This document shows, piece by piece, positions 36,837-39,334 of a stretch of DNA of 64,000 bases. The DNA comes from Rubritalea squalenifaciens DSM 18772. Lineage in GTDB: Bacteria > Verrucomicrobiota > Verrucomicrobiia > Verrucomicrobiales > Akkermansiaceae. A model generated the notes under the pieces. The model made no database searches. It was given only the letters and a program-made list of their open reading frames with translations, and had not been told where the DNA came from. The position numbers were made by a program, and so were the translations under genes. Every line of letters starts with the position of its first letter. The first letter of the stretch is position 1. Location of the stretch: the NCBI RefSeq assembly GCF_900141815.1, contig NZ_FQYR01000005.1, positions 248,001-312,000 on the forward strand, written 5' to 3'.

Positions 36837-38546
36837 ATGAACGAGTACGAAAACAACAAGCGCCCCTATTCCTCCAAGGTAGTAGACGGCGATGACCGCG
36901 CTCCAAGCCGCGCGATGCTCTATGCAGTAGGCTTTGAAAAAGAAGATTTTGAAAAACCACAGGTCGCGATTGCGTCTCTCTGGAGTGAAGTGACTCCGTG
37001 TAACATCCACCTCGATAAGCTCGCCACTGAGGCTGCCAAGGGTGCGGATGCTGCCGGTGGTAAGTCCCTGACCTTCGGTGCTCCTACCGTTTCCGACGGT
37101 ATCTCCATGGGTACCGAGGGGATGAAGTACTCTCTGGTCAGCCGCGAGGTGATCGCAGATTCCATCGAAACCGTAGTCGGTGCCGAGGGAATGGATGGTC
37201 TGGTCGCCATTGGTGGTTGTGACAAGAACATGCCTGGCTGCATGATCGCGATTGCTCGCCTTAACCGTCCGGCTGTCTTCATATACGGTGGTACAATTCT
37301 GCCAGGCTGCGCCATGGTGAAGGGTGAGAAGAAGGATCTGGATGTGGTTTCTGTTTTCGAGGCAGTTGGTAAGCACGCTGGCGGTGAGTTCAATGACTCC
37401 GAGCTTCATACGGTGGAGAGCTGCGCGATCCCAGGTGCAGGTTCCTGTGGTGGTATGTATACTGCGAACACGATGGCCAGTGCCATCGAAGCTCTCGGTA
37501 TGTCCCTGCCAAACAGCTCCGCTCAGGCGGCTGTGGGTGACGATAAGCTGATGGACTGTTTTGACGCTGGTGCTGCGGTGATGAACATGATCGAGAAGGG
37601 CATCCGCCCAAGCGACATCCTCACGCGCAAAGCTTTCGAGAACGCGATTACCGTGGTGATTGCCCTTGGTGGTTCCACCAATGCAGTGCTTCACCTTCTG
37701 GCCATGGCACATGCTGCCAACGTAGAGCTGAGCATCGACGACTTCACAGAAATCGGTAAGCGCGTTCCTGTGGTTGCCGACCTCAAGCCTAGTGGTAAGT
37801 ACGTGATGGCTGACCTCGTAAGAATCGGCGGTACCATCCCGCTGATGCGCATGCTTCTCGAGGCAGGTCTCCTGCACGGTGACTGCATGACTGTGACTGG
37901 CAAGACCATGGCTGAGAACCTGGCGAATTCCCCGCTTTACTACCCGGAGGACCAGAAAGTCATTCTCCCACTCGACAAGCCGAAGAAGAAGGACAGCCAC
38001 CTGCGCATCCTGTACGGTAACCTCGCCTCTGAAGGTTCCGTGGCCAAGATTTCCGGCAATGAAGGTCTCAGCTTTACGGGTAGAGCCCGCTGCTTTGACA
38101 GTGAGGAAGAGTCCATGAAGGCGATTCTTGATGGTCAGATCGAAGCTGGCGACGTGATCGTTGTCCGCATGGAAGGGCCAAAAGGCGGCCCTGGTATGCG
38201 CGAGATGCTTGGCCCAACTGCTGCCGTCATGGGCCGCGGACTTGGCGATAAGGTTGCTCTTATCACGGACGGGCGTTTCTCCGGTGGCAGCCACGGCTTC
38301 GTGGTAGGCCACATTACTCCAGAGGCATTCGTCGGTGGTACCATCGGTCTGCTGAAGGATGGTGATACGATCACCATCGATGCCGAGAACAACGAGATCA
38401 ACGTGGACCTAAGTGAGGAAGAGTTGGCCGAGCGCCGTGCTGCCTGGACTCAGCCTGAGCCACGCTACCGCCGCGGTGTGCTGGCTAAGTACGCCAAGCT
38501 TTGTGAATCCGCCTCCAAGGGCGCAGTGAGCGACGCTGGTCTCTAA
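36837..38546 (+). CDS. ilvD: Dihydroxy-acid dehydratase
   Basis: 569 residues. Fe-S cluster and metal-site motifs: 'CNIHLDKLA' region, '[20 protein letters not shown]' and '[21 protein letters not shown]', plus '[12 protein letters not shown]' and '[19 protein letters not shown]'. It converts dihydroxy-isovalerate/methylvalerate to 2-oxo acids in valine/isoleucine synthesis. The long open frame on the opposite strand (36645-38312) is a by-product of its codon bias. Confidence 0.96.
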
Positions 38547-38576
38547 TAATCAGGGCACAAAGCCGATTTTTGGATG

Positions 38577-38614
38577 CCGGGAATGATCTTATGTCATTCC
38601 CGGTATTTCTTTTT
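38577..38614 (+). terminator. Intrinsic terminator of ilvD
   Basis: Perfect 10-bp stem CCGGGAATGA (38577-38586) / TCATTCCCGG (38594-38603), 7-nt loop, then TATTTCTTTTT. It separates ilvD from the selenoprotein gene, which must have its own promoter. Confidence 0.87.
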
Positions 38615-38672: not shown

Positions 38673-39260
38673 ATGAAACTGAAATCACTTGTTACCATGT
38701 TGGCAACAGGTGCTGCTCTTAGCGGACTGGCTATTGCCGAGTCCGGTGCGGATGCTCCGGCGTCCAAGACAGAAGCGGCAGCTGTTGAAGGGAACGAGAC
38801 CATCAAGGTCTACGTTGTAAACTCTAGCGGCGGCGGTTGAGGCGCTGCTAACAAGGTCCGTGCGGCCTTGACGAGTCAGGACGGTGTTAAAGCTGTCATG
38901 CTCTCTGGTACCAGAGCGTCTGTCATCATGAATGACGACAAGACCCTGGATGAAGAGAGTGTCAAAAAAGCGATCACAGGCAAAGGCCTCAAGTTCGAAT
39001 CCTTCGAAGCGAAGGAGATGGCTGTGCCTAAAGCTGAGTACGTGCTCGCTGTAACAGGTGCTACCTGAGCCATCACTAATGGTAAGGCCCGTGCGGCCTT
39101 AGAAGAGATGGACGGTGTAGCAGCTGCTTACGTTGACAAACAAATCAAGATTCACCTTGCTGAAGACAAGGCTCTGGATGAGGAGGCTGTGAAGGCCAAA
39201 CTCAAGGAGTTCAAAATCGCAACCAAGGAAATCACCAAGTCTGACAAAGTCCCATTCTAA
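38673..39260 (+). CDS. Predicted periplasmic selenoprotein with two tandem HMA-like domains (two in-frame TGA/Sec codons)
   Basis: 195 residues if the TGA codons at 38838-38840 (residue 56) and 39066-39068 (residue 132) are read as selenocysteine; the frame otherwise runs unbroken from ATG 38673 to TAA 39258. Signal peptide to about Ala22 ('GAALSGLAIAES'). Two beta-alpha-beta-beta-alpha-beta units follow: about 43-115 ('IKVYVVNSSGGG-U-GAANKVRAAL') and about 120-190 ('YVLAVTGAT-U-AITNGKARAAL'). Both fit the heavy-metal-associated fold, where the loop G-M-T-C-x-x-C precedes the first helix. Sec falls on the first Cys; the second Cys is Ala in domain 1 and Thr in domain 2 (U-x-x-T). Own terminator downstream; an upstream ATG (38655) is possible. 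The missing second Cys argues for redox rather than metal binding. Confidence 0.85.
38852..38870 (+). promoter_or_regulatory. Predicted bacterial SECIS hairpin 1
   Basis: CAAGGUC (38852-38858) pairs with GGCCUUG (38864-38870), one U-G wobble, loop CGUGC. The stem starts 12 nt after the first TGA, and the loop lies 19-23 nt after it, inside the usual bacterial SECIS window. The loop contains the G-U pair order seen in SelB-binding loops. Confidence 0.7.
39083..39101 (+). promoter_or_regulatory. Predicted bacterial SECIS hairpin 2
   Basis: UAAGGCC (39083-39089) pairs perfectly with GGCCUUA (39095-39101), loop CGUGC identical to hairpin 1. The stem starts 15 nt after the second TGA. The shift of 3 nt from hairpin 1 corresponds to one extra codon in domain 2. 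Confidence 0.72.
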
Positions 39261-39297
39261 GACTTTTAACTTAAACAGATCATTCGCCTAAATACGA

Positions 39298-39334
39298 TCA
39301 CCCGCTTGGTTCTCAAGCGGGTGATTTCTTTTTC
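39298..39334 (+). terminator. Intrinsic terminator of the selenoprotein gene
   Basis: Perfect 11-bp stem TCACCCGCTTG (39298-39308) / CAAGCGGGTGA (39314-39324), loop GTTCT, then TTTCTTTTTC. Located 38 bp after the TAA at 39260 and far from either TGA, which places the transcript end after the full-length reading. Confidence 0.88.

Follow-up and report, generated by a model that had tools for sequence, protein, structure and literature searches.

The window analysed here is a stretch of 64,000 nucleotides from Rubritalea squalenifaciens DSM 18772, and positions are counted from its first letter. Gene content by itself suggests, as probable, a verrucomicrobial source near Akkermansiaceae. A single frame runs from an ATG at 38673 to a TAA at 39258-39260 and is interrupted only by two TGA codons, at residues 56 and 132; re-reading the sequence gave this frame, its coordinates and both TGAs exactly as an earlier note on this DNA had described them. 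Mechanical ORF calling cuts the gene into pieces of 72, 66 and 50 aa, the splitting that the note had ascribed to ordinary gene calling. When UGA is read as selenocysteine (Sec), the following features can be placed along the gene:

38673..39260, + strand: full coding sequence with UGA as Sec, 195 aa (TGA=U translation; 50 full-length homologues collinear across both TGAs)
38673..38738, + strand: signal-peptide-like N-terminus, residues 1-22, ending AIA/E (read from sequence)
38799..39023, + strand: HMA-like domain 1, residues 43-117 (AlphaFold2, pLDDT mostly >90; structural matches to HMA domains)
38838..38840, + strand: predicted Sec codon 1, TGA, residue 56, invariant in the family (translation, alignment)
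38852..38870, + strand: SECIS-like hairpin 1, CAAGGTC-CGTGC-GGCCTTG, UGA to apical loop 18 nt (covariation, native fold)
39033..39239, + strand: HMA-like domain 2, residues 121-189 (Pfam HMA 124-179; model; PDB profile alignment)
39066..39068, + strand: predicted Sec codon 2, TGA, residue 132, invariant in the family (translation, alignment)
39083..39101, + strand: SECIS-like hairpin 2, TAAGGCC-CGTGC-GGCCTTA, UGA to apical loop 21 nt (covariation, native fold)
39296..39326, + strand: terminator-like hairpin with a T tail, closing the transcription unit

Translation could also start six codons earlier, at an in-frame ATG (38655), although homologues begin at an MKLK-type Met. The N-terminal segment, MKLKSLVTMLATGAALSGLAIA, resembles a signal peptide, its cleavage site being a by-eye judgement made without a predictor. 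Several homologues from the same genus have a lipobox (e.g. TTASC) in place of the plain signal peptide, which agrees with export of the protein, itself an inference from sequence. An ilvD-like gene upstream (36837-38546) has its own terminator-like hairpin (38572-38608), and with such hairpins on either side the gene appears to be transcribed on its own; both the signal-like segment and the downstream hairpin, which the earlier note saw as framing the long reading, were seen again here. Neighbourhood comparison across genera gave no conserved operon partners, no metal-transport or mer genes adjoin the gene, and no conserved reductase partner was found near it. In six genomes of a single genus (L056, L058-L060, L062, L063) the next gene downstream, on the same strand, is peroxiredoxin-like; it is not kept in other genera, and we rejected it as a conserved partner and regard it as local synteny. 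A defence library held no match for the gene, and an Rfam scan of the window returned only a tRNA, with no known RNA family at this locus.

The protein is predicted to consist of two HMA-like domains. An AlphaFold2 model based on a 39-row alignment (mean pLDDT 85.8) has two strand-helix-strand-strand-helix-strand units, joined by a linker of about three residues (118-120), with both Sec residues at the start of helix 1. The best Foldseek matches in the PDB include ATP7B, the tandem domains of CopA, Atx1 and CopZ, and on structural realignment each half matched many HMA domains with Z near 10. Pfam HMA (PF00403) is matched just above its cut-off (25.8 bits against 24.8) and by 18 of 39 family members at E 0.01; taken together, a ferredoxin-like fold and a PF00403 profile match, as required of an HMA domain, are both present. 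In the profile alignment Sec132 falls on the first Cys of GMTCAAC in CopA, and no gap is needed to place the second repeat on CxxC, U-A-I-T lying on C-A-A-C. The first repeat (motif UGAA) is one residue shorter after Sec, which refines the claim that Sec stands at the first-Cys place of CxxC in both repeats. The second Cys of CxxC is absent from both domains, with T, K or another residue at site 2, and the protein does not meet the definition of a CxxC metal site, having Sec in first position and no second Cys in either domain. The homologue alignment contains no conserved Cys in the mature protein. The tandem HMA folds and the loss of the second Cys that had been proposed from sequence alone thus find support in Pfam, in the model and in structural and profile matches.

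The homologue search used a four-sequence profile against 260 genomes of the source genome's family and found the protein in 51 of them, spread over several genera. A homologue with both TGAs also occurs outside the family, in a single genome from another family of the order, and among 388 genomes sampled across the phylum there was no full-length copy further away. All tandem homologues that align over their full length have two in-frame TGAs, and in 50 of 50 these occupy one shared pair of columns, with no TGA elsewhere. Eight columns are invariant in the 39-sequence alignment, namely G53, G55, Sec56, S78, G79, G129, Sec132 and R140. Ahead of the first TGA the median dN/dS is 0.28, between the two TGAs it is 0.17, and beyond the second it falls to 0.10; judged by these ratios, purifying selection is strongest 3' of the second TGA, where a genuine stop would give the reverse trend. 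An in-frame UGA with conserved sequence beyond it, as demanded of a bacterial selenoprotein, is therefore found at both columns, and homologues ending at these TGAs, which would have refuted the reading, did not appear. The earlier note had expected either Cys or TGA at both positions in homologues, and only the TGA half of that expectation held: no Cys form was found among the homologues from searches of the family, class and phylum, nor in a scan of GTDB genomes with Cys-codon patterns, and the Cys-substituted protein and the alignment, used as queries, had no match in GTDB contigs. The pattern scan placed Cys codons at the Sec sites, which makes it blind to TGA forms, and its outcome counts as evidence against Cys forms alone. 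Homologues with Cys in place of Sec, which are usual for bacterial selenoproteins but not essential, thus did not turn up in these searches.

Each TGA is followed by a SECIS-like hairpin of seven base pairs (-12.3 and -15.7 kcal/mol at spacings of 18 and 21 nt), the stem lying 14-32 bases after the T of TGA at site 1 and 17-35 bases after it at site 2. The loop has five nucleotides, mostly [CA]GUNN (CGUGN or AGUNN), with G second in every sequence at both sites. At site 1, 90.7% of alignment cells are paired (37 distinct sequences) and five of the seven pairs have changed on both sides; at site 2 the values are 93.1% (25 distinct sequences) and six of seven. The covariation score at both sites is higher than in all 500 shuffles and all slid controls. 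As the hairpins sit in coding DNA, synonymous codons were also resampled within each gene: 6.2-6.6 of the 7 positions are paired in the observed sequences, against a mean of 4.0-4.3 under resampling, and none of 1000 resamples reached the observed value. Stem covariation thus exceeds codon constraint. Fold energy as the sole evidence for the hairpins was rejected, given that the native fold is no better than shuffled sequence at site 1 (z 0.03; site 2, z -2.35), and the site 1 stem is weak in a few homologues. The published bSECIS model allows 16-37 nt from the UGA to the loop, and the G at loop position 2 together with the spacings of 18 and 21 nt satisfies it (PMC13188914). When the genome was scanned with a covariance model built from site 2, the top two hits were the two sites of this gene (E 1e-12 and 0.007), with the caveat that the two sites also have protein homology to each other; nothing else in this genome scan was convincing, and it revealed no further selenoproteins.

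The machinery for decoding UGA as Sec is present in the source genome. Both selA (506.8 bits against a cut-off of 267.9) and selB (300.1 against 242.25) were identified, together with a tRNA-Sec with the anticodon TCA (UCA) and a selD with one in-frame TGA in the context SCGGU. A bacterial selenoprotein requires SelA, SelB, SelC and SelD, and the genome meets this; a genome without sel genes would, by the earlier note's own reckoning, have refuted the reading. The selD gene (L105, G000:C3:915205-916134) has its in-frame TGA within MASCGGU, so that selenophosphate synthetase is itself a predicted selenoprotein here. A match to selA occurs in 48 of the 51 genomes that carry the tandem gene and in 22 of the 209 that do not (Fisher p 2e-31); the genomes are related and this p value overstates the independent evidence. 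Of the carriers, three gave no selA match, and all three are draft genomes. The 22 genomes with selA but without the tandem protein include most of one genus (g142), and Sec must therefore serve other proteins in them.

From the sequence evidence we regard it as almost certain that the gene encodes a Sec-decoded double selenoprotein, and both TGAs are very probably Sec codons, although selenium incorporation is inferred. SelB and tRNA-Sec from the same genome would decode UGA 56 and UGA 132, each with a SECIS hairpin just 3' of it. The product would be a single exported protein with two HMA (ferredoxin-like) domains fused in tandem, in which Sec sits where helix 1 begins, in the first-Cys place of CxxC, and the second thiol is lost. 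CopA, ATP7B, CopZ, Atx1 and MerP, which are close relatives in structure or profile, handle soft metals, and in them the residue at the first-Cys position is a ligand. Since the relatives by fold and profile are often soft-metal carriers, and Sec here replaces a metal-ligand Cys, metal or metalloid binding is our first choice of function, with redox chemistry next. The binding is inferred, and we give it roughly an even chance of being the main role. The protein would most likely act outside the cytoplasm as a binder of a soft metal (Hg, Cu, Ag or similar) or of a metalloid, each domain contributing one selenolate ligand, and it would either clamp one ion between the domains or hold one ion in each with the help of an outside ligand. 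In metal-bridged dimers of the HAH1/Atx1 type two HMA domains share one ion, and by analogy the tandem could supply the missing second ligand, one selenolate from each domain meeting on a single ion; the Sec-Sec distance has not been measured. Taken as a whole, an exported Sec-only double-HMA binder of soft metal or metalloid is the best explanation that we can offer, held with only slightly better than even confidence. Several points count against it: the second CxxC ligand is missing in both domains, metal and mer genes do not adjoin the gene, none of its neighbours is kept across genera, no Rfam family covers it, the fold energy of hairpin 1 is unremarkable, and three draft carriers show no selA match. 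The suggestion in the earlier note of a redox or selenium/metal-handling function outside the cytoplasm fits these observations, but has not been shown.

A double selenoprotein could instead be a redox protein, forming an intramolecular diselenide or using peroxidatic selenols in the periplasm, with the HMA fold as no more than a scaffold. We consider this possible, though clearly short of an even chance. The majority of selenoproteins are redox enzymes, and here both Sec residues are invariant along with the nearby Arg140, the protein contains no resolving Cys for Sec, and the gene stands alone without metal genes nearby. At the second site the usual motif is UxxT, which resembles several Sec motifs of the peroxidase type (PMC13188914), but its threonine is not invariant (K, D, E and I also occur); nor are HMA domains known as redox catalysts, and the conserved reductase partner that such a protein might have is not seen nearby. 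That the protein is mainly a store or carrier of selenium, comparable to selenoprotein P rather than to a metal binder or an enzyme, is improbable: it is small, predicted to be exported and has two Sec and no conserved Cys, yet two Sec at fixed structural positions are few for storage, and the strictness of their G-x-G-Sec context would better suit an active site.

Recoding of UGA to another amino acid, or low-level readthrough without Sec, is more doubtful still. Sequence alone cannot show which residue is inserted, but the genome encodes the Sec machinery, whose occurrence across genomes tracks that of the gene, the hairpins match bSECIS in place, loop and spacing, and the predicted Sec falls at the position of a metal-ligand Cys. 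A changed genetic code was also rejected, as long ORFs in the window terminate at TGA. Finally, although the ORF list alone shows three short ORFs, a broken gene or three unrelated frames with true stops can hardly be reconciled with two identical TGAs in 50 sequences from several genera, with purifying selection that rises after the second TGA and with HMA folds collinear across both.

Returning to the double selenoprotein, we raise, as a tentative idea, that the family represents a Sec-only metallochaperone-like class in which the two Sec act jointly outside the cell membrane, clamping a metal as Se-metal-Se or serving as a diselenide switch. As far as the sequences searched so far can tell, such chemistry would have no Cys counterpart. 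Methods that search for Cys/Sec pairs have been described (PMC1088965). As classical searches need Cys homologues at the Sec position and no Cys form was found, such methods would miss the tandem family, and ordinary gene finders, reading the UGAs as stops, fragment and overlook the gene. This suggests that Sec-only families may remain uncounted. The tandem family also offers a clean test of what selenium contributes to a well-understood metal-carrier fold.

A second predicted HMA selenoprotein family occurs in this lineage: about 40 genomes of the source's family have it, and a further family of the class yielded weak matches. This second selenoprotein family comprises short exported single-HMA proteins with the motif G-[LM]-x-U-x-x-x-C and one TGA (L096:4001-4333, L097:235-579, L098:3001-3348, L099:2983-3312, L100:81-413 and L101:1327-1668 are examples), in some cases as a pair of neighbouring genes (e.g. 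G457:C32, G456:C188, G458:C47), and a hairpin follows the TGA, for instance AAGTGCA-GGC-TGCACTT. A representative reached no curated NCBIfam cut-off. It shares with the tandem protein the exported HMA fold, Sec at the first ligand position and many of the same genomes, but has one domain and retains a Cys four residues after Sec, whereas the tandem protein has no conserved Cys. One bacterial lineage is thus predicted to retain no fewer than two types of exported HMA selenoprotein. Ordinary exported CxxC HMA proteins occur in the same genus as the Sec forms, one single-domain (L137:3998-4372, G000:C3) and one tandem (L102, G457:C202), with a Cys-rich, Lys-rich N-terminal segment, e.g. DCKDGSCKKKKCD; the tandem one was a weak match to the homologue search and was set aside as a separate protein.

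The tandem protein reaches the cut-off of none of the curated NCBIfam HMA families tested, and a 2026 review of the prokaryotic selenoproteome has no fitting entry, which does not exclude earlier naming elsewhere. MerP (TIGR02052), the periplasmic Hg carrier, is likewise an exported HMA domain, but has one domain, a CxxC and a mer operon, whereas the tandem protein has two domains, Sec only and no mer genes near it, and its score is 20.3 against a cut-off of 92.55. Sec-containing MerP-like reads have been noted in ocean metagenomes (PMC2398784). The N-terminal tandem HMA domains of CopA (2rml) and ATP7B are the best PDB matches in fold and profile and likewise form a pair; they are cytosolic CxxC domains of P-type ATPases, while the protein described here is free-standing, by inference exported, and without a conserved Cys. 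HMA-type or metal-transport proteins with Sec include the MerT/CopZ fusion-like selenoprotein NF045683 (11.5 bits against a cut-off of 375) and a Sec-containing E1-E2 ATPase (UxxC), both of other architectures. NF041115, the UxxU metal-binding (seleno)protein (putative mercuric reductase-type HMA; PMC13188914), combines the HMA fold with two Sec and is the best NCBIfam match for 30 of 39 family members; the score here is 28.5 against a cut-off of 95, and the motifs UGAA and UAIT do not fulfil UxxU. It has both Sec in one UxxU of one domain, whereas the tandem protein has one Sec per domain and is inferred to be exported. HMA selenoproteins are thus already known as a kind, and we call the Sec-only tandem with one Sec in each domain a new variant of it.
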